In this document: positions 11,522-56,600 of the stretch, piece after piece
Numbering within the stretch: the stretch's first letter is position 1
Layout: each line of letters begins with the position of its first letter
Assembly (NCBI RefSeq): GCF_032362555.1
Contig: NC_083516.1
Span: 3,063,001-3,127,000, forward strand
Length of the DNA stretch: 64,000 nt
DNA from: Amyelois transitella
Taxonomy: Eukaryota; Arthropoda; Insecta; Lepidoptera; Pyralidae
Reading direction: 5' to 3'
Translations under genes and position numbers: made by a program
Notes under the pieces: model-generated
The model's input: only the letters and a program-made list of their open reading frames with translations
Told to the model about the DNA's origin: nothing
The model's database searches: none

Positions 11522-13028
11522 TTACAGAGGGGGCTCGTCCCACTTCACGTGTTTCTCGGGAGTGAGGTGTACGATCCGGACGTGAACTGCTTGGTTCTTC
11601 TCAAACTTTGGGGGGATGGGGCAGAGACGATATATCACTTCGTCTCCAGGCAATGGAACGTATTCACCTTCAATGCTGAAAATTGTGGATATGGTTTTAT
11701 ATTTTGTTTGTTTTTACGACACTAGTGGAAGATGAGAAATTGAGCCAAAAAAGATGGAAGATAAGAGTAGGTATAATGTTTGCATAGTAACAGAATTTAT
11801 TAAAAATAATAATACATACATACATACATAACATCACGTCTATATCCCTTACGGGGTAGACAGAGCCAACAGTCTTGAAAAGACTGAAAGGCCACGTTCA
11901 GCTATTTGGCTTAATGATAGAATTGAGATTCAAATAGTGACAGGTTGCTAGCCTATCGCCTAAAAAAGAATCCCAAGTTTGTAAGCCTATCCCTTAGTCG
12001 CCTTTTACGACATCCATGGGAAAGAGATGGAGTGGTCCTATTCTTTTTTTTTATTGGTGCCGGGAACCACACGGCACAAAAATAATAATGATATCGATAT
12101 TTTTCTAGCCTAGAAATGGATTAATTATCTGATGTGGTTTATAAAGGCCATTTACAACTATGATCTCATTGGTTAAGAATAGAATAGAATTTATAATACA
12201 ATATTTGCTTTTAAGCTTTTAAGAAAATTTGACAAAAAGATACTTAACAAACAATCAACTTGGCATTGATTTGTCAAGTTTAATATTTGACTATACACAT
12301 GGAAGTGCCAAGGTCAAAGTAAAAATAACAATGGAGAGACTATTATTTTGACGCCCACACTCTACAGGCTTCTGTTAAGTTTGGACAAATTAGATGTTTA
12401 TACAATGCCTTAATGTTTGTGATAATCACTGACTTTGTAGTTAATTTATGTTACCACACCATTTTTAATTCTGTCTGTGGTATGGCTTATGTAAAAATTG
12501 TAATCTATTTTATTCTGAAACTAAAAAACTTATTAAAAAAAAGAAAATGTACCTCATATTGTCGATATATTTATATGATAAAAATATTGCAATTACAATA
12601 CTTAATTGAATCCCCAATAGAGATCCCATTTAAGTAGTATCGATATAAAAATATTTTCACCAACGACATTATATACTACCATTACTTTTACTATCAAAAA
12701 CTACTTACTCGGAAATGTGAACAAAAAGATCGGCCCCGCCTCTATCCGGCGTCACAAACCCGTGGCCTTTCGCACGGCAAAACGACTTTATTTTGCCACC
12801 CTCTAGCGGATTCCCCAATGCCCTCTCAGACCTAAAATCAATAAAATATGGAACTCAATCATCTATACGTGCAATACTTTGTATTGCGTTATATAGAAAT
12901 AGCAAAAATTGGGATACGTACGTCGACGCAGTTCGGTTTCGCCGTGTTATTATTGGGCTGGGAAGTTGCAAGTGCGAATTTGTTTTATTAGGCGAATCAT
13001 CGCTGTTAAAACCATAATCATTAGACAT
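11522..13028 (-). CDS. CARHSP1: Calcium-regulated heat-stable protein 1 (CARHSP1) homologue, cold-shock domain
   Basis: Small single-stranded nucleic-acid-binding protein; in vertebrates CARHSP1 is a phosphoprotein that stabilises mRNA. Exons on the minus strand: 13028-12922, 12831-12709, 11675-11522, giving 127 aa in phase. The N-terminal stretch LPSPIITRRNRTAS matches the Ser/Thr-rich segment that is phosphorylated in CARHSP1. The cold-shock domain follows (~residues 45-120), with RNP1-like KGHGFVTP, RNP2-like DLFVHISD, then EGEYVPLPGDEVIYRLCPIP and the C-terminal VRIVHLTPEKH. The length fits the family (human 147 aa). ATG at 13028 is the first Met of the open frame. The second intron contains a SINE copy. 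Confidence 0.93.
11832..12077 (-). repeat. SINE-like repeat, family A copy 2 (full length)
   Basis: Full copy in intron 2 of the CARHSP1-like gene. On the minus strand it runs from GTGCCGTGTGGTTCCCGGC to the tail ACGTGAT, followed by a short TATG-type tandem tail (plus strand TACA repeats at 11815-11830), as expected for a retroposed 3' end. Confidence 0.8.
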
Positions 13029-20417: not shown

Positions 20418-23400
20418 TTAGTATACAAAAGAATAAAAATCTTCTTTCAACTCTTTACTTTCTTGGCTATTAATCTCAGACGCAACATTGCTTGACTCCG
20501 GTTCCTGAAAAAATATTAAAACATTTTAGGCAACATACGATTTTTATGGGCCCAAATGTAAACCTAAAATAATACTACAACAACAAATGTGAGCTTTAAC
20601 CGACTACAGATGAGATGTCTTCGCGACCTACGCAGTACCAATCGGTATGTAGAGAAGGTTTTTTTTTATATTGTGGGCACGAATGTAAAGGGTCATAGGG
20701 TAACTTTCATCCCAGTAAAAATTATATTCCTTGAGGGATTTGCGAAAATCCTGCGAATAAAGCTAGTATAATAAAATTGTTAATTTTTCTTTTATAATCT
20801 GTTTAGACCTGTAAAGAGTAAAAGTTTAATTACTCTTTAAGTTACATTTGTATTAATTTTCTTTTAAAGCATTTAAGTCTTTCTAAAAAAATAAAATAAA
20901 TAGAATATAATAAAGTGTATATATAATAAACAGAAGACTAACCTCTTCCCTCTTGAACAGCACGGCCAACTCGACGTGCCTGGTATGCGGGAACATGTCC
21001 ACGAGCACGCCCCTGACGGGCACGAACGGCGCGCCGCGCAGCGTCTTGGAGCGCTGGCGAGACAGGTCCACGAAGTTCTTCATGGCGGTGTCCGGGTTGC
21101 ACGATATGTACACGAGACGCTTCACGTTCCTCGTGTTGCGGAGTTGGGTAACGGCGCGCATGTCTGGTGAAACGTACCAACGTATTTTTTAAGGGACCGA
21201 TACAGATGGCATGGTAACCGGTATAACGTAATACCTTGCCACGCCAGTTTTTGGATCAGTGCCTGTTTAGTATAATTTAAAATGAATATTGGTAACAACC
21301 TTTTTACATCGTTGACAAAGGTTGCAACTGGCCACATACAAAAAAATAAAAATATTTTTTTTTGAGTTCACTTGGAATTCTATAGTAATTTAAAAAGGAC
21401 ATATTTGATGTTTTGTATCATATTAATTTAATTAATAAGGTAGTTAGAATATAGAAGAGAAGAGTACAATAGTAAAGTATTACAAAGCAAATTGAATTTA
21501 AGTAAAATTAATAAAATAAAAAACAACTTACGGAGTCCAGCTCTCGGCGGGTCGACAATAGCCACCACATCCTTGGAGGTCCTCTCCAGTACGGTAGACA
21601 GTATCTGCTCGGCCTTCCCGGCGAAGAACTCACAGTTCTTGATGCCGTTCAGCTCGGCATTCGCTTTGGCGTCCTTAATTGCTTCCGCCACGCTGTCAAG
21701 CCCGAAAACTTTGTTGCAATACTGAAATAACACACTAATAATCACGTCTCTATCAAATACAGGAGGCAAAGCCAACAGTCTCGAAGAGATCAATGATCGA
21801 GTTTAGCTGTATGGCTTAATGATGGAATTGAGATTCAAATAGCGACAGGTTGCTGGTTTATTGTAAAAGTCAATCGAGAGAAAGGCTGATAAACTTGGAA
21901 GGCGATCCTGAAGTTATTTTGCTATTAAAAAGGCGTATGTATTGAGTTGTGTTAGATTATTTATCTTTTATCTATACAAGGAAACGAAAAAAGATTTACC
22001 TAGCTCTACTTACTACTTACTCTAGCTCAGAACATCACACTGAACAACTTTTCCTATACGGCTTACACCAATTCGCGAAAAAAAATTCAATAAGAAATTA
22101 ATTACCTATCGCGGCAAAAAGTCGAATAGCTGATATTTTTAACGAAGCACAGTCCCGGTTCCGCGGCAGATATCCACAGCAGTTTCATCACTCTTCACCT
22201 CATTGGATCGGTGATGATAATGATACAAACCTAAGCGAAGCACAATCTTAGTTTCGCAGCAGATGTCCACAGCACTTTCAACATCCGTTGGGATGAGGTG
22301 AAGAGTGTCACGTCATTCCATCGGATGGTGATGATGATACAAACCTTAGCGAAGCACAGCCCTATAGTTCCGGTTCCGCAGCAGATATCCACAACAGTTT
22401 CATCACTCTTCACTTCACTCAGATCAATTGCCTGTTGGTATAGGATGTTCGCAGCTTTGGTGTTCACCTACAATGTCAAATTTATAAATTGCCAAAAGAA
22501 ATTTTACAGACTAGTCAGGTAGATTTATTATTTAAAATTTAAATTGTATTATTGCCATACTATATTATAAATAGCAGAATCACTACTATCCTCCTTAAAA
22601 CTTAGCTTGATCCTTGTAAAAGAGGTCAAATGCATAAATTTAATGTTCTATCTTTTTCATATCGACATCATTTATCATATAAATCTATCCATCCCCCTTT
22701 CATAGAAACCAAGCCTTTTTTTGTAGGGAATTTGCTTTAAAAGTAAGTATAGAAGAAGTAAGTGGTGATTAGTGTCCGACCGAAGCTTCGGCTTCGGCTT
22801 CGGCTTCGGCCACCTTCGGCCAAAAAATCCACCTTCGGCGAAACATTCGGCTTCGGCCCAAAACCCGAGCGAAGCCGAAGGTTTCGCCGAAGGTCCGAGC
22901 GACCGTCGAGATTGAACGAACTGAACAGGACGTCCTTAATTTGATCAAGATACGTTCGTCTAGGTCTTCCCACTCCGACCTTTCCCTCCACACTCTCCTT
23001 GTATATCTGCTTAGTTAACCTGTTTTCATTCATCCTCTCCACATGACCGAACCATCTCAACATACCCTTTTCTATTCCTGTAACTACATCTTCTTTCACA
23101 TCACAACATTCCCTAATCACGCTGTTCCTTATCCGGTCACTCAATTTCACACCCAACATACTCCTTAACGCTCTCATTTCCACTGCATTTATTCTGCTTT
23201 CGTGCTTCTTTTGCCATACCCAACTTTCACTCCCATACATTAATGTCGGGACCAACACGCCCCTATGCACAGCCAGCCGAGCCTTTTTGGATAGTTTCTG
23301 ACTGCTCATAAAGGCATGCAAAGCTCCATTCACCATGTTCCCCGCGTTCACTCTCCTTTCAATATCACTATCACACTTGCCATCTGATGTAAACTTTGAT

Positions 23401-26400
23401 CCTAGATATACAAACTCTTTCACTTGCTCAACTTTTTCTCCTCCAATCAAAATATTACATGCTGTCATTTCTTTCTCCATTTCAAAAACCAGTGTTTTAG
23501 TTTTACTTACGTTCACTTTCATTCCTTTCTCATTTAAAGCTTCATGCATACAGTTTACCATCTCCTGTAACTCCTCCGCTGATGACGCCAGTATAACCTG
23601 ATCGTCGGCATAGAGCAGACATTTGACGAGTAACTCATTCATCCTTAATCCACTTTCAGACTCTTTCAAATCTGTCAAACAACTATCCATAAATAGGTTG
23701 AACAGCCACGGTGACGCAACACATCCTTGCCTAACGCCTTTCTCAATCTCAAACCACTCAGTGTGCGCTCCGTTTATCCTGACACAAGCACACGAATCCT
23801 CATATAAGGATTTCAGTGCTCGTATCAAGAGACTGCTCACCCCATGCATAGAAAGTGCTGACCACAATTCATTCCTCTCAACTCTGTAATAGGCCTATTC
23901 CAAATCCACGAATGTGCAATAGACTTTTTGACTCTTGGCCAAAAACTTTTCGGCTATGCACCGCAAAGAAAAGACCTGATCAGTACATCCCATTCCCTTT
24001 CGAAATCCCGCTTGAGCATCCCATATTTTGCCATCAGTTTCATTCCTGACTCTTTTAATCAATACCTTAGCATACAATTTGCCGACGACGCTAAGCAGGC
24101 TTATACCACGATAATTTTTGCAGTCCAGTTGTGACCCTTTTCCTTTGTAAAGTGGCACGATAACAGCCTTACACCAATCTTTTGGTACTCGGCCGCTTCT
24201 CCCAACACAAATTGAAAAGGCAGTACAACTGTCTAGCTACGACGCCTTTTCCTGCTTTTAGCATCTCGACCTCTATCATACCCAGCAGCCTTACCCGCTT
24301 TCATACTCTTAAGTGCTTCCACAATTTCGAACATTTCAATTTCGCCTTCCATCTCATTCTCTTTTTCTTCGCTATAGCAGAACTCTTTCTTATTTCTTTT
24401 CTTTTTTTCAAATAAACTCTCAAAATAGTCCTTCCATATCTTTAGCACACATTCTTTTTCTTTCACAACGCCACCATCCTGGCATCTGATCCTAGTCAGC
24501 TCTCTGGTTATAGTTTTTGCTCGGGCTGACCTTACGGATTTCCAGAATACTTTCAGATTTGACTGAAAGTCTTCTGATAACCTTTTATCAAATTCCTCTT
24601 TATACTCTTCTTTCTTTCTAATCACAGCTTTCTTTACCAAATCTTTCATTTTTTTTATATTCCTTACGTGCTTCATTCACATCTTCATCTATAACCTCTT
24701 GCATTCTTAAGTTAGCTTTTGCTGCTAACAAATCCAGCCATGCTTTCTTCTTTAATCGCACAAGTTCTTGCACATCTTTATATGATATATCATCAACTTC
24801 TGTATGAGACAGTCAATATATAAACCTTCAATATTGAGGTTTTGAAATAACTTTAATATTAATTGTAGCTTGTAGACAATATTGTACAAAATTAATTACT
24901 GAGTGCTGAGAGAATATAAACCTTCGGCTTCGGCTTCGGCTTCGGCCGAAGGTTGTGGCGATAGCCGATTAATCGGCTTCGGCTTCGGCTTCGGCCAAAA
25001 ATAGACCTTCGGTCGGACACTAGTGGTGATGGAAACTGATTTTACCTGGAAAAATGCCTCTGGAGACACTCTGAATTGGAGCCCCAATATGGAATCCACG
25101 ATGTGTGTGGGACCCATCAAGTGTATTGGTTTTGAAGGCTCTTCTCCGGGCAGCCTGAAAAATTGGATGAAAAATATTTTTTGTAAGAAACATTGAGAAT
25201 ACCTACTACAATTTTTGCTTTAGAGCCCAGCCCCTATAGTATGTCACGCGCGACGCCTGCCGGAATAACGCGACAAAATTGTCTATATCCCATGCGGGGT
25301 AGACAGAGCCAACAGTCTTGAAAATACTGATAGGCCACGTTCAGCTGTTTGGCTTAATGATAGAATTGAGATTCAAATAGTGACGGGTTGCTAGCCCATC
25401 GCCTAAAAGAAGAATCCCAAGTTCATAAGCCTATCCCTTAGTCGCCTTTTACGACATCCATGGGAACGAGATGGAGTGGTCCTATTTTTTTTTTTTTTTA
25501 TTAGTGCCGGGAACCACACGGCACTTTTTATAGATAAAGAAAATATAATAACAATATAAATAATCAGTTTTTGAAAATCCTGGGCTTTTAAAGCCCGAGT
25601 ACAATACGGGATACATCATGAAAAAATGGAGATAAGAAATAAACTGTTTTGTCTGACCTTTTTTTGACATGCTCGTAATATAACGATTTGATGCCACAAG
25701 CTACCGCGTCCTCCTTGCTAAAGTATTCTATCAAATCCTTTTTAACTTCACCCAGTTGTTCTTCTGTTAAACTCTGAAACACAGGTTTAAGAACATGCAA
25801 GAGTTTGAAAAAATATTATAGTGGCGCCCAAGTCACATTATTTAGTTTTGTTTTAAGTCAAATAATATCTTTGTCTGAAATTTCTGATAGGAAATTCCAA
25901 TTAGAGAAACAAAAAATTGTGTCCAATATATTTTTCAGTATGTCCAAAGAAAAATATATTTTTTCAGCATGTCCTATATTGAATATGGGATCTTCATGAC
26001 TCAAGAGGCTAGCTCATTTCGTCTACGCCACAGAGTTCGACATATAATAGAAAGCAAGAAATAAAAACAAAATGATATTTCAAATGAGTTAAAATTAACC
26101 GATAGATACACAAATAAAATCACGCCTCTTTCCCGGAGGGGTAGGCAACATGTTTCCACTTGCCTCAATTCATGCGAACTACAAATTTAAACACATTCAT
26201 AACTTTACACATAAAATAAATAAAAAATTACCTGCGGATGAAATTGAATGATCATCATGATGTCGTCTGAAGTTGAGGAATGCCTAAGCATCAGCCCTCT
26301 CCAATGGCCGGTGTAATCGACGGCTGAGTACGGTGGTAACTTTGATTGCCTTATGTAGTTTTGGAACAACTAGAAATTAATATTCAAATTAAAAATATTA

Positions 26401-33110: not shown

Positions 33111-34112
33111 TCTATCTTCTATGCCTACACTCGCTTAGGAATCACGAAATCTCGAAATCTACTGAGCCAATAAAGATGAAATTTGGCAGGAAGGAAGATT
33201 TTAATTAGGAGGGATCCATTCCTAAGGGGGTGAGATAGGGGTTGCAAGTTTGTATGAAACTTCGTCATTTTTAGTGTGGGATAATTACTTGAAATTTTAG
33301 ATTTCAATTTACGTTTACATAAAAATAATAACCCATTAATTGGATTTTGAAAATCCTAAGGGGGTGAAATAGGGGTTGCAAGTTTATATGAAACTTCTGC
33401 ATTTTTATTATTGGACATATGAAATTTTAGATTTTTTACGATTAGATTAAAATAATAATTCATTAATTGGATTTTGAAAATTGTATTCCTAAGGGGGTGA
33501 AATAGGGGTTGCAAGTTTGTATGAAACTTCGTCATTTTTAGTATTAGGCACATTAGATTTAAATTCACGGTTAGATTAAAATATTAATTCATTAATTGGA
33601 TTTTGAAAATTGCGTTCCTATAGGGGTAAGTTTGTATGAAATTTCGTCAATTTTAACGTTGGGCACATGAAATTTTAGAATTAAATTTTGGTTAGCATGA
33701 AATAATCATTAAAACATTGGATTTTGAACACTGCTTCTCAAGGGCGAAAAGTAAGGTTTGGAAGTTTGTATGAAACTTCGTTTTTTGATGGGTGTCGAAG
33801 TGCGAGAAGTCTTAAATATTGGTAAGTAAAACATACGTGTGTATCAGTTGCGGAAAGCAGGATGGCACTAAATAGGATGGGATGGGACAGGATAGGACTG
33901 GACGGGGCAGGACGGGACATAACATGTTGGGACGGGACGGAACAGAACGAGAAGAGACGGGACAAGACGGGAGAAGCCATATGAATTTAAATCAAATGTA
34001 AACTTAAAACAGTCCCGCACGACACGGGATTAAAAAATGGGTGAAATTTTATGACGTATACTTATAATCTAAAATAAATTTGCGCGGGCGAAGCCGCGGG
34101 CAAAAGCTAGTA
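33111..34112. mobile_element. Non-coding insertion with diverged ~120 bp tandem units
   Basis: Interrupts the RTE relic. Contains four to five units with GGGGTGAAATAGGGGTTGCA, AGTTTGTATGAAACTTCG and ATTAATTGGATTTTGAAAAT at roughly 110-120 bp spacing (33230, 33360, 33490, 33610, 33740). A purine-rich GGGAC-type tract follows (33865-33975), and the end is GCGAAGCCGCGGGCAAAAGC. That last end is common to many lepidopteran repeats. No ORF of note. Confidence 0.6.
33865..33975. repeat. Degenerate GGGAC/GGGATGG simple-sequence tract
   Basis: About 110 bp of imperfect pentamer to decamer repeats (GGACGGGACAT, GGGACGGGACGG, GAGACGGGACAAGACGGGAG), strongly purine-biased on the plus strand. Confidence 0.75.
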
Positions 34113-34399: not shown

Positions 34400-35071
34400 A
34401 AATGTAAAAGATTTCGTGGTTATGGATAGTTCATTTAATAACAAAGTGCTGGATCCATGTGCTTATCGTGGTGGCGGCATCGACTCGGACCACTTCCTAG
34501 TGATATATCGAACCTTCAATCGTTGGTGGCGACACAGGGCTAGGGGGCATGCCAGCACTTAAGAAAAAGTGAAAGTAGAAATTATGCAAAATGAGAACGT
34601 TAGTAAGAAGTATGTTCATAGACTAAAGGATGAATTTGAACATTAACATGAGATAACATTGATGGAAAGAATTTAAAGACATAATTCAGAAAGTATCTAA
34701 CTATAAAATTGTACGGTGTAAGTAAAAGAATAAGAGAAAAAAATAAAAAAAGTGGGTAGACTCGAGATGTGCAAAAAACTTGTGTGAATGAATAGGAAAT
34801 AAAAAAGGAACAGGAATAGAAAAAGGAATGCGTAAATGGTTTGGCCATGTCGAGAGGATGAACGAAAGTAGGTTGACTAAGCAAATGTACAAAGGGAGTG
34901 TGATTGGGACTGGTGGAGTCGGCAGGCCTAAACATGGTTGCATGAAAAGAGTTATGAATGTAGATGAAGTGAAAGAACTATGCAAGGATCAAGACAAGTG
35001 GAAAGATGTAGTCCCTACCAAAAAGGTGATTTATAAGGAAAGAGGCGTGATTTATATATACATATACATAT

Positions 35072-35309
35072 AATCACGGCTATATCCCTTGCGGGTTAGA
35101 CAGAGCTTAAAAAGACTGATAGGCCACGTTCAGCTACTTGGCTAAATGATTGGATTGAGATTCAAATAGTGACAGGTTGCTAGCCCATCGCCTAAAAAAA
35201 TAATCTCAAGTTTGCAAGCCTATCCCTTAATCGCCTTTTACGACATCCATGGGAAAGAGATGGAGTGGTCCTATTCTTTTTTGTATTGGTGCCGGGAACC
35301 ACACGGCAA
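35072..35309 (-). repeat. SINE-like repeat, family A copy (full length)
   Basis: Adjoins the 3' end of the RTE relic through a TATACATA tract (35054-35071). The minus strand runs from GCCGTGTGGTTCCCGGC to CCGTGATTAT. It has a small deletion in the GCCAACAGTCTT block. Confidence 0.8.
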
Positions 35310-35633: not shown

Positions 35634-38600
35634 ATGGCAGATTTTCTAGAGTCCGAGGCAGAGGAAAGCGACGTAAGTAGAGCATTTTACATATTCATAT
35701 GAATGTCCAACAGTTGTGATTATTTACTTACGAATTATCATTTGGTAGGCATTTTACACTTACATTCATACAAATCACGATTTCAGGTTGATTCTGAGGA
35801 AGACGAGGGACCAACAGAACGTAAAAAGCCAAAGCGTAAAGCAGCGGTTCAAAGCGACGATGAGGATGAAGAGGAAGAAGGTATACCATACGAATTGTCC
35901 ACGTATATGATTCAAACCACGTTAATGATGGCAATTACTTTGTAAACATCCTGGTATTGTTTAATTTGAATCTCATTTGAGCTTGACAGAACCTAAATCA
36001 ACTCTTTCATAAATAACCTCAATTATACAATTTTGTTTTTTGACACACTTTCAGTGACAATAACTTATTAATCTAATTTCAGACGACGAAGAACGCCTCC
36101 GGGAGGAGTTAAAGGATTTGATAGATGATGCCCCAATAGAAGACTCTGGAAGCGATGGAGAGGACTCAGATGCTAGTGCAGGACCTAAAAAAAGAAAGAA
36201 AAGTGACGATGAATTAGATGATAGACTGGAAGATGAAGATTATGATCTCATAGAAGAAAATTTAGGTGTTAAAGTAGCAAGGGTAAGGTTGTGTTATTTG
36301 TTAATTATTCATACTTTTACCTACCATATACAGTTTTTAACAGAGCAATGAGAACATCTTGTAGGTCTTGTAGTCTTGTAGTAACCTTATTAGCAATTTA
36401 AATCTGCTTTAAACACTAAAAAAATAAATTACCCACTACACTTAAACTTCTTTGCAGTATAGTTGCCTTCTTTTCTCAGCAGTATATTGAATGCCTGGCA
36501 TATTTGTTTAGCGTGAGCGATGATTTGGCTCGACTGCCACCAAAGGGAAGATCTTCCGCCAGGCTAGGTGCTTATGCCTGGAGAACCGCGGCTCCGACAA
36601 TATTGTGTCGGAGGTTGTATTTATGCTCCAATTCATGAAATCTTTGTAATCACAATTAAGATTTCTTTGTCAATTTCTTCAATTGCATTCTTCGTCAATT
36701 TCTTCGCAATAATTGTCAAGGAAATATTTTTCTTTTTTATTTCCATCATATAGTATTTTAAATTTTATTATTTCTTTCCTCTTTGCTCTTTCCATCTCCC
36801 TAGTCTCCCTAGTGAAGAACGTAACTTTTTGCGATTATACTTCCTGCACTTGTTTACTTGAGGAACAACAAATCTTTCATAATCAGATTTTATTTTCTTA
36901 AGATTATAAAAAAGCAAAGATTATTTGCTGTTTATTCTTTTGTAAATCCTCTACAAAAATATTAATCAATGATCAGCTAGAAATTATGTAGTCTAAACAT
37001 TCATAAATCTTTTATGGTTGTCGAAATTGCAAATTACTTTTTTAGGTAGCTTTCTAATCTAACTATCAAATATTTTTAGTAATATTGTTATAGTATCATT
37101 TAAATATGTAAAGCAATCCACATTTATTGTGATGATGTTTTGAACAGAACAAATTCAAGCGTCTCCGACGTCTGGAGGATGATGACAGTGACAATGAAGG
37201 TGCCGATGACCCCGAGTTGGAGAGAGAGGTCATTGCTGAAAAGTTGTTTGTTGGCGGATCAGATGATGTAAGTGTTTATTTATTCTCATTCACTTCATTT
37301 AACAAACTTTATTTCCAAATAACAAATCACAAATACTTATAATCTTCCAATAGAAATGCTGTACGATAGGTGATACCAGGGATAAGTAATTATTTTAAGA
37401 TATTTGGAGAATCTGGACAAATTATACAGACGAAAAATTTTGTAACATTATTTATTTTTTTAATTAAATAAATTGTTCTTTTCCTAATACATACACTATA
37501 TTATGCCCTGCGTAAAGCTACATACATATAGTCACGTCCCTTACAGGTTAGACAGAGCCAACAGTCTTGAGAAGATTGATAGGTCAAATAGTGACAGGTT
37601 GCTTGCCTACAATCTACAAGAGGAATCCAAAGTTTATATTACATATTGGTAAATGAACATACCTAGATTTTAAGCCAGATAGTTCCCTCTACACTTAAAA
37701 GACTGATTATCTTCTCCAAAAGGAAAGTCTTTTGGTGATCATTTACTGAAAAGACATTCTTGTTTTCATATTAGGAAGATGAAAATCGTTCAGAGCCTGC
37801 GCCAGCCAGGGGAGATGTGGAATATGATGATGAGAATGAAGACATGGAGTCGGATGCTGATGATTTCATTGTTGATGATGATGGGCGGCCCATAGCAGAG
37901 CGTAAGAAGAAACGAAAGCCTATATTCACAGATGCGTAAGTATTCAGTCAATAAGTGATACCTCATGCAATTTTGAAAATAAATCTATTCTATTCTACAA
38001 TCTGTCACTTTTATGGATATGGTCCATAAAAGTGATAGATTGTAGAAGAGTATGTTTAAGTATGTCAGCTAGTAATAGGGAATGCAATCTCGTTCTCGCG
38101 AGATCTCGGCCTTTCTGAGCGAGATTAATATCGGAGGGAAAAAGGGCGAGATCTCGCGAGATTAACGAGATTGAAATCGAGTATAAAAGCATTTCGTGAA
38201 TAATTGCCTAAGATCTGTGGTTCCAACTAGCTGGTTGGCTGGCTGGCTGGTTGGCTGGCTGGTTTGCTGGTTATCTGGCCAACAAAATAAGAAGCCGTTT
38301 AGCAGACGATTCTTAGGACATTTTGTGCTTCTTACGGAGCTACTTTCAAAATAATCCGTAATAATAGCTTGTGATTTGAACTGAACAAATATTTAATTTA
38401 ATTGGTATATTTTGTTAATTAATCTATAATTTCTAATAGTCTGACTAATTGGTATATTTTGTTAATTAATCTATAATTTCTAATAGTCTGACTAATTGGT
38501 ATATTTTGTTAATTAATCTATAATTTCTAATAGTCTTACTAATTGGTATATTTTGCTTATTAATCTGTAATGGATCTCAAGAGTACATATAATGTTATTT

Positions 38601-41600
38601 AATTGATAATAATATCTCAATTTAGTAGTCAGCTTCAACTCAACTTAGATGATAAGTTTCCTTTTGTTTTTACTTCTCGTTGTTTTGTTTATTATAAGAG
38701 AACTGTTTTGAACTAAAATATTTTTGTTTGTTATTAGAAGAGAAGACTGGTTGATTTTGTATTTGTTTTTGATAGATACGTACGTCAAAGTTTTTTTCTT
38801 AAAAGTTTATTAAAAGATTAAAATTTTCAGACAGATACATCAAACAATATTCGATGAAAAAATGAATTTTATCTTACAATACCTATTTCTTATTTATTTT
38901 TCTAATTGCTAAAATATAGTCATTCAATCATTATTTGATAAAAAAAAAACACAACTGGCAATCTCGCGAGATCTCCAAATTGACGAGATCTCGCAATATT
39001 GTTATTTATAATTTAGGGCGAGATTGGGGCTCCAGCGAGATCTCGCGAGATTTGCATTCCCTAGTTGGTAACTTAACTATACTTATAAATATATTATGTC
39101 TTTGGCCGATCGATATATTGGCCAGATCATGATGTAGCTGGACATTTCTTGAACCGCCAGGTCAGGGTCAGGTTTTCAAACTAAGCAACTCTGACCTTCA
39201 CAGGGGAACCTAAACCCCTTATTAGGTTAACCTAACCTAAACCCCGTTTAGGTTCCACTGCACAGCACTTCACTACACACTTCCTCTCTGTATAATAATT
39301 CGTATTATTTTCAAGATTTTAGTTTAATTTTCATAACATGTTATACAGATCTCTACAAGAGGGTCAAGACATTTTTGGCGTAGACTTTGATTACGATGAA
39401 TTTGAGAAGTACGGCGAGGAGGACTATGAGGATGAAGACGATGAAGATCTTGACGAGTACATTGAGGAAGAAGATGAAGAAGGTAAGTTTATAAGGATGT
39501 TGTTTTTATATACATACTTTTTTGAGTGTTGCTGGTTGGATAGATAAGTGCAATATGATAACTAAGGTATATGCAAGTTCAAATAATATCTATTCACTTT
39601 TGCCTTGTATTTTCTTGTCTGCTGTATTTAATATTGTTTTTTATGCAAGCAAGTGCAAGCAAAGCCTTAATTAACGTTGTTGGTCATTTGTTACAGGCGA
39701 TAGAAGGCGAGCTAAGAAGGGTAAAGCAAAGAGGCCTAGCAAGAAGTCTATATTCGAAATTTATGAGCCAAGTGAGCTCAAGAGGAGCCACTTTACTGAC
39801 TTGGACAATGAGGTATGTGTTCTTGCTTAAAAATTTTTCATTACACATTTGCTACTTGAACCTTGCGACGAGTAGCTCTACTACTTTATAGAAATTCCAA
39901 GTAATAATAATGATTAAAGTTAAACGAAAAGTTGATGACAAACTAAATTTTCTTTAGATATAGCTCAATCTCTGTGACAGTAGGATAAAACAATAACTAT
40001 GAGTAGTTGCGAAATAGACAAACTATAAAATGTATACATTTGACATCTGCCACAGATATCTTAACTACATATATGTATCTAAACTTTACAGACATAACAT
40101 GCGATAAAACTTGTCAGCAATGTTAGTCATTATTTCAACAAATAAAACATGTTCTCTTTTACATTAAATATACAAACAATGTCAACAAAAACTGTCTGGT
40201 TTAGATCCGTAAAACGGACGTGCCCGAGAGGATGCAAATCCGCGAAGTTCCCATCACGCCGGTGGAAGAGGGCAGCACTGAGCTGGCGGACGAGGCCGAG
40301 TGGATCTACAAGCAGGCGTTCCTCAAGCCACCGGTGTCCAAAGCTGACTCGCAGGAAGCCAGGGAGAGGTCCCGCAGGTAATTGTTTTAACAAAAATTTA
40401 TTTATTCCTTGAATATGGTTATAATATACATAGGTCTTAATTATTACCAAATGCGTACTTGAGACTTCAAATGCCCTTCTTCCAATTAGTTCTGCGGCTT
40501 ACTGAATAAAAAATATGTGTAAAAGAGAGAGAGAAGATAATGTTTATTCTTCTCAAATCATGTCTTGCAGAGTCATATCATGAAGACAGAGTTAACAGTC
40601 TTGAAAAGACTCAATGGCCATGTTCAGCTGTATGGCTTGATGATGAAATTAAGATACAAATAGTGACAGGTTACAGGCCCATCGTCTCCAGAAGCTATTA
40701 TTATCCTTTCCCGTCGTGAATTGCTTTTTTTTGTATACAATTCGAAATTATTCGAAATGTTATTCAATTTACACAGAGGTTCGAGCACAATAACTAAGAT
40801 TCGCCAAGCGTTGGACTTCATGAGGAACCAGACTTTGGAAGTCCCGTTCATAGCATTCTACCGCAAGGAGTACGTTCAGCCTGAGCTCAATATCAACGAC
40901 TTGTGGAAGGTGTACAAGTATGATGCCAAGGTGAGTCAAGTTATTTCAAGGTGCTAATGCTGCTACTTTAGGAATAACCAGACATTTGTAAAAGTAAAAC
41001 ATCAAGCCATTGAAAGGTGGTATTTCTATAACATTTTCTGCACGTTTATAGCCTCCAGGAGTGCCTGCAGCCCCAGGTCTATGAATGTGAATGTGAGGTG
41101 GTGACTCTTGAGCCGATGATTTACATCATAGATAACACCTCACGCCTCTTTCCCGGAGGGCAAAGACTTCATCATTCCACATATATATGGTTAGCTCCAA
41201 GTTAGTTCAGAACTTCTGTTATAAGATACTAGCTCAACAAATATATATAGAAATATCTAAGTGCCGTGTTCCCGGCACCAATACAAAAAAGAATAGGACC
41301 ACTCCATCTCTTTCCCGTGGATGTCGTAAAAGGCGACTAAGGGATAGGCTTACAAACTTGGGATTCTTTTCTAGGCGATGGGCTAGCAACCTGTCACTCT
41401 TTGAATTTCAATTCTATCATTAAGCCAAATAGCTGAATGTGGCCACTCACACTCAGTCTTTTCAAAACTGTTGGCTCTGTCTATCCCGCAAGGGATAAAG
41501 ACGTGACCATATGAATATCTAAGACCCCAGCCAGGAAAAAGTTTGATTTTGATAATTTTAAGTTCCATGGTTATCAATTTCGATTCTTATAACTTGGCTT

Positions 41601-44600: not shown

Positions 44601-47600
44601 AACAGTTACAATCAATGAGATATTATCAAATGTGCCTTTTATACTGTTTCTTTTCTTAGAAATTTCTAAATATTTATTCAACTTTCAGTCTAAAATACTT
44701 GAAGAAGAAACCTGTCCGCGACCTGACCGGCGACCAGTATCTGAAACTGACTATGGCGGTAGAAGACAAACTGCTGGAAATGAGCATCAGCGAGAACATA
44801 GAGGGCAACACCGGCCCCAGCTACCTGGAGGAGCTCAAACAACTTTATCAGAAGGTAAGCCCACTTCACATCCCATCACCACTTATAAATAACTATATAT
44901 GGGACAATACACAGATTGACTTACCATCAAGCTAAGTTCAAAACTTGTGTCATAAGATACTAACTCAACAATACTATATTTCATAATAAATACTTATGTA
45001 AATAACGTCCAAGACACAGGTTAATTAAAAATAATCTCAAGTTTGTAGCTGCATTAAATTAACTTTAACTTTGTTTAACAGGACGAGTTCGCGTCAACTG
45101 TTCAAGCCTGGAACGAGTTGAGGGCTGAAGCGGTGACCATAGCGCTCACCAAGTTTGTGATGCCCGAGCTGAGGAGGGAACTCAATGCTGTGCTGCTGCA
45201 GGAGTCTAAGGAATATGTACTCAAGTATGTGGTTTTTTTTCTTATTTATAGCCTTGAAACTGTTGACCACCTAACATATCTTTAATTCTTGGGAATGTAA
45301 ATAATCATTGGGGCTCAAGTCAAGGCTGTAGGAAGGATATCTATCAACTCCACGTTTTGTATTTTACTTATTTAACTTTCAAAATTGGAATTGTGTTTTG
45401 AATAATATTACATTTCATACAACAAAGAGGTTTAAGTATAATTAATTCCTAAGTATTCTATTCCCGATTTTTACAGTGTGGCCCTCGTATTACTGTCAAT
45501 AATTGAATCGAGACCTTGATGCTAAAATTAATAATATTTTTTGAATTAAAGGTGTATGATATAAATACTTTAATTTTGAAAATGCATCATGCAGACATTC
45601 CGGGAGACTGCAAAAATTCAATGTAATGCGAAGTGCGTAGAATGCGAAGTGGTAAACCGATGTGAAGATCGTATTTTTTCTTTTTTAAATCCAGATGCTG
45701 CCGGCGAAAACTGTACGACTGGCTGAAGGTGGCGCCTTACGAGTCACGTGTCTCCGACGACGATGACGAGGAATGGGACGCTTCGAATGGTACGTATTAC
45801 TACATACTTACCTACATAAAATCACCCCTCTTTCACACACAGTCTTGGTTAATTAGATTTTATCTGTCGCAATCGTTCTGAATCTCATGTCATTTGCATC
45901 TTTTATTTATATAATAATTTGAGTGCGTTTGACCTCAGTCAGCCTCTGGTAAGCAAGATGAGGCCTGAGGTGATGCTCGCAAACTCAAATAAATCCCCAA
46001 GTTGTATGTGTACTCGGAAAGGGGATTCGGGGAGGGAATTCCAAATTACAGCGATTCGCATGATAAAAGATTTGGCTAATTGTAATGTGCGAAGAGTGAG
46101 GATATCGTACGAGTGGAATCCCTGCTCACTGCGCCAGCGCAACCTGTATTCCAGGTCTTAACAAAGTATTAAAATAAAACTAATTTTCAGGTCTCCGCGT
46201 GCTGTCCATCGCGTACGTGCCCGACCGCCAGCACTCCGCGTTCGCGTGCGTGATAGCGGGCGGCGGCGAAGTGGCCGACCACCTGCGGCTGCCCCACCTG
46301 CTGTGCCGCCGCAACGCCTGGGACGCCGCCGAGCGGCAGAACAAGCAGGCCGACCTCACCGCGCTCAGGAGGTAGCTCTCATGTGTATCTAGCTGATATC
46401 CTCACTCTACACTCGATACTGGCGAAGTGGCCGACCACCTGCGGCTGCCCCACCTGCTGTGCCGCCGCAACGCCTGGGACGCCGCCGAGCGGCAGAACAA
46501 GCAGGCCGACCTCACCGCGCTCAGGAGGTAGCTCTCATGTGTATCTAGCTGATATCCTCACTCTACACTCGATACTGGCGAAGTGGCCGACCACCTGCGG
46601 CTGCCCCACCTGCTGTGCCGCCGCAACGCCTGGGACGCCGCCGAGCGGCAGAACAAGCAGGCCGACCTCACCGCGCTCAGGAGGTAGCTCTCATGTGTAT
46701 CTAGCTGATATCCTCACTCTACACTCGATACTGGCGAAGTGGCCGACCACCTGCGGCTGCCCCACCTGCTGTGCCGCCGCAACGCCTGGGACGCCGCCGA
46801 GCGGCAGAACAAGCAGGCCGACCTCACCGCGCTCAGGAGGTAGCTCTCATGTGTATCTAGCTGATATCCTCACTCTACACTCGATACTGGCGAAGTGGCC
46901 GACCACCTGCGGCTGCCCCACCTGCTGTGCCGCCGCAACGCCTGGGACGCCGCCGAGCGGCAGAACAAGCAGGCCGACCTCACCGCGCTCAGGAGGTAGC
47001 TCTCATGTGTATCTAGCTGATATCCTCACTCTACACTCGATACTGGCGAAGTGGCCGACCACCTGCGGCTGCCCCACCTGCTGTGCCGCCGCAACGCCTG
47101 GGACGCCGCCGAGCGGCAGAACAAGCAGGCCGACCTCACCGCGCTCAGGAGGTAGCTCTCATGTGTATCTAGCTGATATCCTCACTCTACACTCGATACT
47201 GGCGAAGTGGCCGACCACCTGCGGCTGCCCCACCTGCTGTGCCGCCGCAACGCCTGGGACGCCGCCGAGCGGCAGAACAAGCAGGCCGACCTCACCGCGC
47301 TCAGGAGGTAGCTCTCATGTGTATCTAGCTGATATCCTCACTCTACACTCGATACTGGCGAAGTGGCCGACCACCTGCGGCTGCCCCACCTGCTGTGCCG
47401 CCGCAACGCCTGGGACGCCGCCGAGCGGCAGAACAAGCAGGCCGACCTCACCGCGCTCAGGAGGTAGCTCTCATGTGTATCTAGCTGATATCCTCACTCT
47501 ACACTCGATACTGGCGAAGTGGCCGACCACCTGCGGCTGCCCCACCTGCTGTGCCGCCGCAACGCCTGGGACGCCGCCGAGCGGCAGAACAAGCAGGCCG

Positions 47601-50600
47601 ACCTCACCGCGCTCAGGAGGTAGCTCTCATGTGTATCTAGCTGATATCCTCACTCTACACTCGATACTGGCGAAGTGGCCGACCACCTGCGGCTGCCCCA
47701 CCTGCTGTGCCGCCGCAACGCCTGGGACGCCGCCGAGCGGCAGAACAAGCAGGCCGACCTCACCGCGCTCAGGAGGTAGCTCTCATGTGTATCTAGCTGA
47801 TATCCTCACTCTACACTCGATACTGGCGAAGTGGCCGACCACCTGCGGCTGCCCCACCTGCTGTGCCGCCGCAACGCCTGGGACGCCGCCGAGCGGCAGA
47901 ACAAGCAGGCCGACCTCACCGCGCTCAGGAGGTAGCTCTCATGTGTATCTAGCTGATATCCTCACTCTACACTCGATACTGGCGAAGTGGCCGACCACCT
48001 GCGGCTGCCCCACCTGCTGTGCCGCCGCAACGCCTGGGACGCCGCCGAGCGGCAGAACAAGCAGGCCGACCTCACCGCGCTCAGGAGGTAGCTCTCATGT
48101 GTATCTAGCTGATATCCTCACTCTACACTCGATACTGGCGAAGTGGCCGACCACCTGCGGCTGCCCCACCTGCAGTGCCGCCGCAACGCCTGGGACGCCG
48201 CCGAGCGGCAGAACAAGCAGGCCGACCTCACCGCGCTCAGGAGGTAGCTCTCATGTGTATCTAGCTGATATCCTCACTCTACACTCGATACTGGCGAAGT
48301 GGCCGACCACCTGCGGCTGCCCCACCTGCTGTGCCGCCGCAACGCCTGGGACGCCGCCGAGCGGCAGAACAAGCAGGCCGACCTCACCGCGCTCAGGAGG
48401 TAGCTCTCATGTGTATCTAGCTGATATCCTCACTCTACACTCGATACTGGCGAAGTGGCCGACCACCTGCGGCTGCCCCACCTGCTGTGCCGCCGCAACG
48501 CCTGGGACGCCGCCGAGCGGCAGAACAAGCAGGCCGACCTCACCGCGCTCAGGAGGTAGCTCTCATGTGTATCTAGCTGATATCCTCACTCTACACTCGA
48601 TACTGGCGAAGTGGCCGACCACCTGCGGCTGCCCCACCTGCTGTGCCGCCGCAACGCCTGGGACGCCGCCGAGCGGCAGAACAAGCAGGCCGACCTCACC
48701 GCGCTCAGGAGGTAGCTCTCATGTGTATCTAGCTGATATCCTCACTCTACACTCGATACTGGCGAAGTGGCCGACCACCTGCGGCTGCCCCACCTGCTGT
48801 GCCGCCGCAACGCCTGGGACGCCGCCGAGCGGCAGAACAAGCAGGCCGACCTCACCGCGCTCAGGAGGTAGCTCTCATGTGTATCTAGCTGATATCCCCA
48901 CTCCGAATCTCTACTTATAGGCAATGAGCGGGCAAATATCTCTTAAATGATATATATTAGCAAAGTTTTTATATTTGTTAAGCTCTTATCTGTGAATGTA
49001 GAATGTATATTTTTAATTAAAATATTTTTTTTTTCTGCAGGTTTATACTCCGCAAGAAACCGCACGTGATCGTTATAGGCGGCGAGTCGCGCGAGGCTCT
49101 GAACGTTAAAGCGGACGTGTCGGAGTGTGTTCAACAACTGGTAGAAGACGAGCAGTTCCCGAGAATACCGATTGAGATCGCCGACAACCATATCAGTAAA
49201 ATATATAGCAACAGCATCCGAGGCAGGGTGAGTTGATGTTTAATATCTAAGCCACTACGATTTTCGATAGTTCCCCTGGATTCCATTGAGATGCCATCGT
49301 CAGATTCTGATTTCGTAGTCATGGTTTGAATTCCACCATTCTTTGAAATATCTCATTTCCAACAAACAAAGAATCATCAAAACCGGTTCATAAACGGCTA
49401 AGTTTTGCGCGAACATGCATAAGCCTATGATTGATAATTGAGAAACGTCTTTTGAAGTCGAAAAGTGGACTTGTCGGAATGTGTACAAAAAATTGGTGGA
49501 TGACGAGCAGTTCTATAGATTTCCAAGAGAGATCGCTGACAAACATCAATATTATATAGCAACATTAAGGTAGGGTGAGTTAAATTATCAACAATTTGGA
49601 ATCGTAGGTCACAAATAAAAAGGCCTCAAAAGATGTTACGCCTGGGGAACTACGGTGCCGACCGTATTATGTCGGAGCTTGTATAATGCCAAACAATAGA
49701 AATTTTGCCTTCACGATTTAGGATTTTCGCTATTGGCTTGTGGCGTAGTGGTGGATTCAGTAATAAAATTGACTTGATGTTTCATTTTAAAATTGATTTG
49801 ATGTCTCATTTTGAAAAGCCGGCTGATGATGACGACTTTGTGGATGTGGGCATTGTATTTAGTTAGAGTCATTGTGCAATAGCTGTAAAATATCCAAATT
49901 CATAAATCCTTTATTCTCATCACGACTATCGTTAGTAAATACCGTAAAAGTCCGATTGTTCCGCCATGTCTAGCGAATGTAATACTTTGGTTGCTAAATG
50001 TATGTTTTTACTTTTATTTACAGAATGACTTCAGAGAATACCCGGACATCCTCCGCCAGGCGATCTGCCAGGGCCGGTTACTACAGGACCCTCTTATGGA
50101 AATCTCACAACTCTGCGGCCCTGACGAAGAAATATTATGCTTCAGATACCACCCGCTCCAAGACCAGATAGCCAAAGAAGATCTCCTTGAAGGCATCGAG
50201 CTGGAATTCGTCAACAGAATCAACGAAGTCGGTGTAGACATGAACGAAGCTATACTAACAGGACGCGGAACAGAGTTACTGCAATTCGTCTGCGGCTTGG
50301 GACCTCGCAAAGCTCAAGCGCTGATAAAACTCTTCAAACAGACCAATCAGAAACTCGAGAACCGAACGCAGCTGGTGACTGTCTGCCATATGGGGCCGAA
50401 AGTCTTCATCAACTGCTCAGGGTTTATTAAGATCGACACGAGCAGCCTAGGAGATAGTACAGAAGCGTACATTGAAGTTCTAGACGGTTCCAGAGTCCAC
50501 CCTGAGACATATGAATGGGCGAGGAAGATGGCCGTTGACGCGTTAGAGTATGAAGACGAAGACGCGAATCCGGCCGGCGCCGTCGAAGAGATCCTTGAAG

Positions 50601-53600
50601 CGCCAGAGAGATTAAAAGACTTAGATTTGGACGCTTTCGCTGAAGAATTAGAGCGACAAGGCTTCGGAAATAAATGTATAACGCTGTACGATATTAGAGC
50701 TGAATTGAACTCTAGGTATAAAGACCTAAGGGTGCCTTATCGCTCGCCTACTCATGAAGAGATGTTTGATATTCTAACCAAAGAATCGCCTGAGACGTTC
50801 TACGTTGGCAAGATGGTGCTGGCTACGGTGGTGGGGATCACACACAGGAAGCCGCAGAAGGAGATGCTGGACCAGGCCAATCCTGTGAGGAATGACGAGA
50901 CCGGGCTGTGGGAGTGTCCTTTCTGTCATAAGAATGATTTCCCTGAGTTGTCAGAGGTGAGTTTAAATACTAGTTTTCCTTAAACTAGTCTCAATTAGGA
51001 AACAACACATTTTTTTAACGAATATTTTCTATAATGCTCGATAATAATACTGAAATTGCAGGCACATTTTGCACTTACATATAATTACTTCTTCATCTTT
51101 TAAGGTGTCTGTCTTTAATGAGAAAAACGCTATTTATTTAGGTTTTCCTAAGGCAGTGAAGAATACTTGTCTTATTTGACCCATGAATTTTGTACCCTAA
51201 AATAAAGTTAATATTATATAAAAAAAACCATAGCAGAACCACATTTGAGATCCCATGCTTTAACAATATATTCCTACACAGGTATGGAATCACTTCGACG
51301 CCGGCGCGTGCCCGGGGCAGGCGACCGGGGTTCGAATCCGGCTGGACAACGGCCTGTCCGGGTACATCCACATCAAGAACCTCTCCGACCGACACGTCGC
51401 GGACCCCACGGAGCGCGTGCGCATCGGCCAGACTGTTCACTGCAGGATACTGAAGATAGATGTGGAAAGATTCTCAGTAGATTGTTCGTCGAAATCCTCA
51501 GATTTGCTGGATAAAAATAAAGAGTGGAGGTAAGTTTATTTTTAGTTGACACTGTTTAAAAAAAGGCTGTACATCACGCGTAGGAATGCAGATACTGTCA
51601 TTTAACATTTCATTATCTCTGTGTCGCAAGGTTGTCGGTTAATAGTAATCTTAACGTTAATCCCAACTGAAATGCGAAAGTAAATATGATTGTTACCTCT
51701 TCACGCGTTAACTACATCAACAATCTCTTTAAAAATTTGCGTATATATAATTAAGAGTCTGGCGAACATAGGGTACTTTCTTTCCACTTAAAACTATAGT
51801 GCCGTGTGATTCCCGGCACCAATACAAAAAGAATAGGACCACTCCATCTCTTTCCCATGGATGTCGTAAAAAGCGACTAAGGGATAGGCTTACAAACTCG
51901 GGATTCTTTTCTAGGCGATGGGCTAGCAACCTGTCACTATTGGAATCTCAATTCTATCATTAAGCCAAATAGCTCAATGTGGCCATTCAGTCTTTTCAAG
52001 ACTGTTGGCTCTGTCTACCCCGCAAGGGATATAGACGTGACCATATACATACATACATACATAAAATCACGCCTCTTTCCCGGAGGGGTAGGCAGAGACT
52101 ACCTCTTTCCACTTGCCACGATCTCTGCATACTTCTTTCGCTTCGTCCACATTCATAACTCTCTTCATACAAGCTCGGCGGTTTCGGGTACTTTTGACCT
52201 GACCCTTTACCAGGACGTCCTTAATTTGATCAAGATACGTTCGTCTAGGTCTTCCCACTCCGACCTTTCCCTCCACACTCTCCTTGTATATCTGCTTAGT
52301 CAACCTGCTTTCATTCATCCTCTCCACATGACCGAACCATCTTAACATACCCTTTTCTATTCCTGTAACTACATCTTCTTTCACATCACAACATTCCCTT
52401 ATCACGCTGTTCCTTATCCTGTCACTCAATTTCACACCCATCATACTCCTTAACGCTCTCATTTCCACTGCATTTATTCTGCTTTCATGCTTCTTTTGCC
52501 ATACCCAACTTTCACTCCCATACATTAATGTCGGGACCAACACGCCCCTGTGCACAGCCAGTCGAGCCTTTTTGGATAGTTTCTGACTGCTCATAAAGGC
52601 ATGCAAAGCTCCATTCACCATGTTCCCCGCGTTCACTCTCCTTTCAATATCACTATCATACTTGCCATCTGATGTAAACTTTGATCCTAGATATACAAAC
52701 TCTTTCACTTGCTCCACTTTTTCTCCTCCAATCAAAATATTACATGCTGTCATTTCTTTCTCCATTTCAAAAACCAGTGTTTTAGTTTTACTTACGTTCA
52801 CTTTCATTCCTTTCTCTTTTAAAGCTTCATGCATACAGTTTACCATCTCCTGTAACTCCTCCGCTGATGACGCCAGTATAACCTGATCGTCGGCATAGAG
52901 CAGACATTTGACGAGTAACTCATTCATCCTTAATCCACTTTTAGACTCTTTCAAATCTGTCAAGCAGCTATCCATAAATAGGTTGAACAGCCACGGTGAC
53001 GCAACACATCCTTGCCTAACGCCTTTCTCAATCTTAAACCACTCAGTGTGCGCTCCGTTTATCCTGACACAAGCACTCGAATCCTCATATAAGGATTTCA
53101 GTGCTCGTATTAAGAGACTGCTCACCCCATGCATAGAAAGTGCTGACCACAATTCATTCCTCTCAACTCTGTCATAGGCCTTTTCCAGATCTACGAATGT
53201 GCAATAGACTTTTTGACTCTTGGCCAAAAACTTTTCGGCTATGCACCGCAAGGAAAAGACCTGATCAGTACATCCCATTCCCTTTCGAAATCCCGCTTGA
53301 GCATCCCATATTTTGTCATCAGTTTCATTCCTGACTCTATTAATCAATACCTTAGCATACAATTTGCCGACGACGCTAAGCAGGCTTATACCACGATAAT
53401 TTTTGCAGTCCAGCTGTGACCCTTTTCCTTTGTAAAGTGGCACGATAACAGCCTTACACCAATCTTTTGGTACTCGGCCGCTTCTCCAACACAAATTGAA
53501 AAGGCAGTACAACTGACTAGCTACTACGCCTTTTCCTGCTTTAAGCATCTCGACCGACACTCTATCACACCCAGCAGCCTTTCCCGCTTTCATACTCTTA

Positions 53601-56600
53601 AGTGCTTCCACAATTTCGAACATTTCAATTTCGCCTTCCATCTCATTCTCTTTTTCTTCGCTATAGCAGAAATCTTTCTTATTTCCTTCCTTTTTTTCAA
53701 ATAAACTTTCAAAATAGTCCTTCCATATCTTTAGTACACATTCTTCTCCTTTCACAACGCTACCATCCTGGCATCTGATCCTAGTCAGCTCTCTGGTTAT
53801 AGTATTTCCTCGGGCTGACCTTACGGATTTCCAGAATACTTTCAGATTTGACTGAAAGTCTTCTGATAGCCTTTTATCAAAATCCTCTTTATACTCTTCT
53901 TTCTTTCTAATCACAGCTTTCTTAACCAAATCTTTCATTTTCTTATATTCCTTACGTGCTTCATTCACATCTTCATCTATAACCTCTTGCATTCTTAAGT
54001 TAGCTTTTGCTGCTAACAAATCCAGCCATGCTTTCTTCTTTAATCGCACAAGTTCTTGCACATCTTTACTCATCCACGCATTTTTGTGATTTTTTCCTTA
54101 CCTTCTTCTACTTACACCACACACTTCAACAGCTACTTTCACAATTCTTTCTTTAAATTCCTTCCATCCATCTTCAATATCGCTCATTTCCTCTAAATCT
54201 TCAAATTCATCCTTCAGTCTATTAATATACTTCTTACCTACATCCATATCTTGCAAATTTTCTACTTTTACTCTTTCCAAAGCGCTGGTTTGCTCCCTTA
54301 CCCTGTGCCGCCAGCGATTGAAGATACCCCTTATCCGGGATATCACCAGTAAATGGTCCGAGTCAATGCCAGCACCGCGATATGCACGGGTATCCAGCAC
54401 TTTGTTCTTCAATCTTTCATCTACAATCACAAAGTCTATCATACTTTTTAAAATACCTTCCACTCTTGTGTAGGTGTGGATCTCTTTATGTTGAAACATT
54501 GAGTTCGACACAAAAAGATCCCACTCTAGACAAATTTCTAATACACTTCTTCCATTATCATTCACCTTTTCGTCACCAAACGCACCAAGCACCTTCTCAT
54601 ATCCATCACGCTTTACACCCACCCATCCATTAAAATCACCTAACATAATAATCTTCTCATTTGGCTTGGTAACTTTCAATACTTCTCTTACACTATTCCA
54701 GAACTCCTCGTTTTCGCTTTTTGCTGATGTTGTACCCCTCGAACCCACATCCCAAGGTGCATAAACACCTAGAACGAAGATCCGAGTGATTCCAACTTTC
54801 AGCCTAATCCATAGAAGACGAGGGCTGACACACTCATACTCATTCACGCACTCAGCCATTCGTGCAGAAAGAATTAGACCGACCCCTTGACAGCCTCGGC
54901 TGGTACTGGAAATTCCAGACCAATACGCCGTGTAAGGGCCGTGCTGCGTCGCGTCGCATCCTTTCCGCTTCGTTTCATTCACGCACAACACATCCAAACG
55001 TCTTTCATCCATCATCTGGCATACTTCCTCAATCTTATCCTTCATTCCTCCTCTTACATTCATCGTCGCAAAGCGGCTTTCAGCAGACCGCATACCGCTC
55101 CCGCCGGGAACGAGACGTGATGGGGTGCGGACACCATCGCCGCCATTTAGGTGCTCTTTTAAAAAATTTGCATCCATGCGATTCCCACGAGACGCAAGGG
55201 AACAATTTTGTCCGCCCCAGCAGAGCCCCGCATGCCAGGGTAAGGCTAGCCATTACCTGGGGGTCGCCCAACCCCATGGCGGAAGTGGCACGCTCGAGAC
55301 TAGGCTCGCCCCTAGCCATGCATCCATCGGCCGTGACCATATATATGTACGTGACCATATGTATGTATGTAAAACTATAGTTCCCGTGAGATTTGCGAAA
55401 AACCTGTATTCTTTTGTAGGTGGCGCTAAATTCATGCGTATAGGTAGCTTTATTGGTGGCGCCAAATTCGCACGGGCAAAGGTGCTATTAAAAGCTAATA
55501 TGAAAAAAATTGTCTCTACACATGTATTAAAAGTCCTCTCTTTTCGCAGGCCACCAAAAGACCCGTACTACGACCAAGAATCCGAGGATAAGGACGTTCG
55601 GAAAGACGTCGAGGCCAAACAGACTAAGGAACGGATGCAATACGTGAAGCGGGTTATAGTTCATCCCGCCTTCCACAATATATCGTTTGCGGAGGCCGAG
55701 AAGTTGATGGAGAACATGGTGCAAGGAGAAGTTATTGTCCGGCCGAGCAGTAAGGTAAAAACATCTGATCTATATATCTATATATATATATAAAGATTTG
55801 CCAAAAATAAAGAATACCTCGCCATATTGAGGCTTAAAGATACCAGAAATATAATGTTCATTTTTGTTACAGGGTTCTGATCACCTGACCGTGACGTGGA
55901 AGGTGGCCGACGGAATCTGCCAACACATTGACGTTCGGGAAGAGGGGAAAGAGAATGCTTTCTCGTTAGGTAGGCTGTTTATGTATTTAAAAGAAACGCG
56001 GAGTTAACAGTCATGCACCAAAGTATAAGTTAGAATGAGAATCCATCAGAGTCAAATGTTCTCTGTGCTAGTTACAACATCCCCCACTTCACTAGAGCGG
56101 AGTCCGGGGTGCGTAGTGTTTTGTGAGTAAATATTTATATTTTGTTTTTCTTTCTCAGGTCGAAGTCTCTGGATACAGGGTTCGGAGTTCGAAGACTTGG
56201 ATGAAATCATCGCTCGTCACGTGACCCCGATGGCGGGACACGCCCGGGACCTGATCGCATATAAATATTACAAACCTTTAGGCGGCATGCGAGACAAGGC
56301 GGAGGAGTGGCTCAAGGAGGAGAAGGCGAAGAACCCTAACAAAATTCACTACGTCATATCCGCAGCGAAAAACCACCCCGGCAGGTTCCTGCTATCGTAC
56401 TTGCCTCGCAGTCGGTGCACCCACGAGTACGTCACAGTGATGCCGGACGGGTACAAATTCAGGCAGAGGATGTTCGACTCGCTCGGCGGGCTGCTCAAGT
56501 GGTTCAAGGAGCACTTCCGAGATCCGCCGCCCAGCGGCACGCCGGCGCAGAGGACGCCGGCCGCGCGCACGCCGCACGGGCTGTCGGCGCTGTACCACAC

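Follow-up and report, generated by a model that had tools for sequence, protein, structure and literature searches.

A tandem array of an SPT6 exon end and its splice donor in the genome assembly of Amyelois transitella

We analyzed a 64,000-nucleotide stretch of the genome of the pyralid moth Amyelois transitella (NCBI RefSeq assembly GCF_032362555.1, contig NC_083516.1, positions 3,063,001 to 3,127,000 of the forward strand), here called the window, in which an intron of the essential gene SPT6 carries tandem copies of the end of the preceding exon together with its 5' splice site, or donor. All coordinates are window positions and, unless stated otherwise, refer to the plus strand. The assignment of the locus to SPT6, proposed in a first-pass annotation, is upheld by a match to the YqgF domain (PF14639, 78.2 bits) and by the alignment of human SPT6 chains to the exons flanking the array (E=1.5e-27). 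Most of this domain is encoded by two exons, one at 46191-46371, which covers its first part, and the next at 49041-49227, whose native acceptor has the highest score of the 17 that we modeled. Open frames 3' of the array match HHH_7, HHH_9, S1 and SH2_2 above their cut-offs, with the Spt6_S1 model narrowly below its own (27.3 versus 27.5), and the domains lie in the SPT6 order of YqgF-like, HHH, S1 and SH2.

The gene model comprises 17 donors and 17 acceptors, placed from the reading frame, conserved peptides and rough score matrices; it begins downstream of the first exons at the 5' end and skips the stretch 37268-39349. The acceptor at 39349 was picked by hand, a junction search having put 39323 first; the range of native acceptor scores and the count of weaker native acceptors given below are the same either way.

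Between the two YqgF exons lies a tandem array at 46265-48903 with a period of 156, 16.9 copies, 99% matches and 0% indels, which Tandem Repeats Finder scores at 5264, compared with 504 for the runner-up among its 23 rows. Composed of head-to-tail copies of one unit, the array belongs to the minisatellite or satellite class of tandem repeats. Read unit by unit, it consists of 16 full units of 156 bp and a 17th of 143 bp. In each full unit, the final 107 bp of the first YqgF exon are followed by 36 bp of native intron with the donor GAG/GTAGCT (the slash marks the splice junction), and then by a 13-bp filler. Unit 1 occupies 46265-46420; its donor, at 46372-46377, is the native 5' splice site of the exon, and its filler, at 46408-46420, is missing from the native flank past unit 17 (48761-48903), a part-unit that runs into native intron after position 143. 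AGGT bounds every unit on both sides. The sequence CTCAGGAGGTAGCT is present 17 times, with the last exon bases running from 46371 to 48867 in steps of 156, and the 17th donor (48868-48873) lies 173 nt from the native acceptor.

Fifteen of the 17 units (1-12 and 14-16) are identical. Unit 13 (48137-48292) departs from them by a single T>A at unit position 38, and unit 17 matches at 142 of 143 positions, its sole difference being T>C at position 138. At 48176 the substitution in unit 13 also makes CTGCAG/TGC, a candidate acceptor with a score of 0.5. The first-pass annotation had described about 17 copies of a 156-bp unit, each with 107 bp of coding sequence and an identical donor. Tandem Repeats Finder and the unit-by-unit reading agree on the copies, the coding part is confirmed at 46265-46371, and we counted 17 exact donor copies. 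Of the coordinates given there, 46265 to 48895, the start stands, and the end moves to 48903. The view that near-identity of the units implies recent expansion or homogenization is supported.

With the array, the intron measures 2669 nt; with one unit it would measure 173 nt. The 15 other SPT6 introns that we measured are 214-865 nt long, the intron between 37267 and 39349 being left aside. Chorion_1, a lepidopteran family, has 16 matches in the 327-Mb assembly (33 contigs) and none in 14 control genomes, which points most likely to a moth or butterfly. In this assembly, the array unit has 17 matches, all at the SPT6 locus, and a 122-amino-acid (aa) SPT6 query has 18 matches, only at the array locus. 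No second SPT6 copy was found in the assembly by this protein search, which also omitted the decayed exon-end copy described below; both assembly searches score best candidates only, and diverged copies can escape them. None of 40 Tandem Repeats Finder rows from twenty 10-kb stretches, taken at 2.0 Mb of contigs C1-C20, had a period of at least 50 with at least 5 copies, in what is a small, non-random sample of 200 kb, or ~0.06% of the genome.

Outside the array, the window contains no perfect match to the 13-bp filler, the closest having 2 mismatches, and the filler aligns to the native flank no better than shuffled sequence does (0.59 of 2000 shuffles reach its score). Unusual folding of the unit as a cause of its expansion found no support, with a z-score of 0.06 and equally good folding in 92 of 200 shuffles. 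Across the array runs an 887-aa open frame (46257-48917), which exists because the unit spans exactly 52 codons and is free of stops in one of its six frames; we rejected it as a gene, its frame differing from that of SPT6.

We then followed the reading frame through the possible splice products in silico. The SPT6 frame is recovered when donor 1 is joined to 49041, while joining donors 2, 3 or 17 to 49041, the three of the 16 downstream donors that we computed, gives in each case the same in-frame TAG at once. The remaining downstream donors joined to 49041 would also meet this TAG, since all of these transcripts would run on past the first donor, and retention of the entire intron meets it at once as well. 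These results bear out, for donors 2, 3 and 17, the earlier claim that reading past the first donor encounters TAG. The accompanying claim that only the first donor is in frame holds for direct joins to 49041 and fails for two-step routes. Candidate acceptors, CTCAG/GAG and the AG of AGGT, also stand at the end of every unit, and splicing to them would remove units with the frame preserved in silico. The first of these appears in unit 2 with its AG at 46523-46524, 3 nt upstream of donor 2, and recurs in all later units. Splicing from donor 1 to the CTCAG/GAG of unit 2, 9 or 17, and then from the donor of that unit to 49041, yields SPT6 with one additional arginine; stepping through all of the units leaves the frame open and adds a run of arginines. 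Use of the AG of AGGT as acceptor would yield normal SPT6.

On the rough scale used here, CTCAG/GAG scores 1.7, which is inside the range of the native acceptors (-2.8 to 8.3), above 6 of the 17 modeled ones and within the top 5.1% of the 3474 AGs in the window. The AG that abuts the donor scores a poor -4.5 against the same native range and does not qualify as a recursive splice site, that is, one with a zero-length exon. We also considered the unit as a cassette exon with GAAG/TGG as its acceptor, which is unlikely: the acceptor scores -5.0, the intron would be 56 nt and one cassette hits a stop. With three cassettes in series, no stop occurs in silico before the next exon ends.

The array is not the only copy of an exon end in this gene. 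A self-comparison of the window with units 2-17 masked found, at 49462-49581, an older, decayed copy of the 3' end and donor of exon 49041-49227 (aligned part 49108-49234), lying within the following intron, with 75% identity over 128 columns (E=4e-15) and the donor core AGGGTGAGTT retained. In all, the downstream intron contains a copy for 2 of the 17 modeled donors, in each case matched by 0 of 200 shuffles; for the exon end and donor of the array, the alignment score is 240 and the shuffle maximum 35 (n=200). None of the 17 acceptors has an upstream copy above the shuffle maximum, with the array excluded from the target for 49041 and with shuffles that preserve base composition only; two acceptors have values reached by 0.02 and 0.035 of shuffles, which is unsurprising among 34 tests. 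The decayed copy implies that an extra downstream donor was tolerated earlier in SPT6, although two exon-end copies in one gene are no rule.

We consider it reasonably probable, taking the reading as a whole, that the array is a real, young tandem expansion in which productive mRNA joins donor 1 to 49041 and the 16 further donors act as decoys. In this reading, a segment that covers the 3' end of the exon together with its 5' splice site would have been duplicated in tandem, with the 13-bp filler at the junction, and would have expanded recently to 17 near-identical units through unequal exchange or copying during replication. The extra copies would become intron because they lie 3' of the native donor. 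The acceptor upstream of the exon, at its start at 46191, would pair with the nearest donor, at 46371, across a 181-nt exon, which would then be joined to 49041; transcripts that join any of the 16 other donors directly to 49041 would carry an early stop and be expected to decay, and the array would have no selected function. Overall, the array is probably real and young, the extra donors are most likely decoys, and the effect on splicing is a prediction from sequence. From the unit-13 substitution alone, in 2639 sites, the age of the array comes to ~1.3e5 generations (3.3e3 to 7.3e5), and with the unit-17 difference included to 2.6e5 generations (3.2e4 to 9.4e5), figures that are order-of-magnitude only and assume no homogenization and a butterfly rate of 2.9e-9. 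That the downstream frames of SPT6 are open suggests a sufficient supply of the protein by way of donor 1 or a two-step route, although too little time may have passed since the array arose for frame decay to test this strongly.

Geometry and published data on donor competition pull the choice of donor in both directions. Donor 1 defines a 181-nt exon preceded by a 401-nt intron, which favors its use; donor 17 would define an exon of 2677 nt. Under exon definition, human minigenes that carried two strong donors of identical sequence used the upstream one exclusively (PMC9225289). Several observations weigh against use of the first donor. The distance from donor 17 to the acceptor is 173 nt, shorter than all 15 other measured introns, which favors donor 17, here the wrong donor. 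The native donor is itself weak, with a score of 6.0 (second lowest of the 17) and a pairing energy with the 5' end of U1 of -6.3 kcal/mol (second weakest of the 17), and the matrices behind the favored explanation are rough. According to PMC9225289, a short downstream intron favors the downstream donor where donors in genome data are of near-equal strength, ~60% of all events before the strength filter favor the downstream donor, and two larger-exon constructs with weakened identical donors mostly skipped the exon. Carried over to the array, the published competition rule does not settle which donor is chosen.

The best placed of the alternatives, though an unlikely one, is that splicing proceeds in two steps: the last donor would first be joined to 49041 over the 173-nt intron, and donor 1 would then be joined to an acceptor at a unit end, so that the units leave as intron and 0 or 1 extra arginine remains. 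The AGGT-to-AGGT form of the units speaks for this, as do the open routes through the CTCAG/GAG of units 2, 9 and 17, the standing of that acceptor among native sites and among the AGs of the window, and the documented ability of tandem duplication of AGGT segments to create introns (PMC4974935). Against it, the donor-abutting AG scores below all 17 modeled native acceptors, and CTCAG is preceded by C-rich coding sequence and was scored with a rough matrix. The 3-nt exon that the CTCAG/GAG route requires would also be hard to recognize.

Next in standing, and again improbable in our view, is an assembly artefact, in which an assembler or polisher multiplied what in the animal is a single unit or a small number of units. 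A loop in the assembly graph could yield 15 identical units, but unit 13 has a substitution of its own and unit 17 is a distinct edge unit, as in a real array, and the window is without N in a contig that spans 11.4 Mb. Placement of a near-perfect array of 2.6 kb needs longer reads, and assemblers collapse such arrays more often than they extend them.

Slightly lower in our ranking, and doubtful as a whole, stands the notion of an intron that erases itself. The AGGT-bounded units would be removed by a second splice, which would repair a wrong choice of donor at a cost of at most one arginine, and many units would shield donor 1, so that growth of the array would be favored. Under this scheme, copy number would act in a direction not anticipated. 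Two or three units would be the worst state, since the splicing machinery would readily recognize a decoy exon of 337 or 493 nt as well as the 173-nt intron, while with many units the decoy exon would become too long, reaching 2677 nt at 17 units. Very improbable, finally, is a regulatory poison array in which the downstream donors deliberately make a stop isoform and the number of copies adjusts the SPT6 level: the immediate TAG after donors 2, 3 and 17 and the earlier suggestion that copy number sets the rate of splicing failure agree with it, but the near-identity of the units suggests youth, not long conservation.

Elsewhere in the window, frames of a non-LTR (long terminal repeat) retrotransposon lie between SPT6 exons on the minus strand at 52070-55252 (RVT_1, 142.6 bits; Exo_endo_phos_2, 28.7 bits), and part of this element, 52211-54068, is 97.2% identical to 22926-24780. 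An interspersed repeat of ~250 bp occurs at 41260-41512, 51798-52046, 35059-35308, 11834-12077 and 25281-25525, with 84-95% identity among the listed pairs, and two more tandem repeats lie at 38399-38571 (47 bp x 3.7) and 33218-33626 (133 bp x 3.1). The window contains no Rfam match to a structured RNA and no tRNA.

We met no report of such an array in SPT6 in the openly licensed literature searched, mostly with queries that did not name SPT6 together with Lepidoptera. The nearest relative is human IFI6 (6-16, G1P3), in which a minisatellite with a short, 12-bp repeat unit reportedly supplies multiple splice donors, a finding said to go back to Turri, Cuin and Porter in 1995. There, as in the 17 identical donors of SPT6, the units of the repeat include a splice donor at the 3' end of an exon. 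Use of two downstream units gives three mRNA species with different isoforms, as described in PMC4526556. In SPT6, by contrast, the unit measures 156 bp, of which 107 bp are coding, there are 17 units, and direct use of a downstream donor would end in TAG. Given the IFI6 precedent, the SPT6 array is not a new category.

A second likeness is to intron gain through tandem duplication of AGGT segments, which is documented (PMC4974935) and also treated in PMC3629103. In ATP2A1 and in potato RdRp (PMC4974935), as in SPT6, AGGT or the boundary between exon and intron lies in the duplicated segment, and a GT-AG intron can thereby form between copies; under the Rogers model of such duplication, the peptide is unchanged (PMC4974935). 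The potato RdRp case has two copies, is verified by whole-genome sequencing (WGS) and RNA reads, and crosses the acceptor side (PMC4974935), whereas the 17 copies in SPT6 cross a pre-existing donor. Tandem-repeat introns that resemble a nearby exon are also similar in that the repeat intron is like adjoining exon sequence, but their units are short and not totally identical and the introns newly gained, while the SPT6 intron is enlarged and, judged by its position between conserved exons, appears to be old.

In the two-donor minigenes of PMC9225289, identical donors compete for one acceptor, as they would here; those donors were built in pairs and assayed in cultured cells, and the 17 donors of SPT6 are natural. 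Choice among identical donors has been studied in such built two-site constructs (PMC9225289). If the array is real, the animal produces SPT6 mRNA in the presence of 16 further donors that are exact copies of the native one, a natural experiment on donor choice in which alleles differing in copy number would form a graded series. It would also bear on how far exon-end copies are tolerated in introns and whether such copies seed new introns. The SPT6 array shares features with both IFI6 and AGGT-mediated intron gain, with the differences that its unit is larger and that joining a downstream donor directly to the acceptor should terminate the product.

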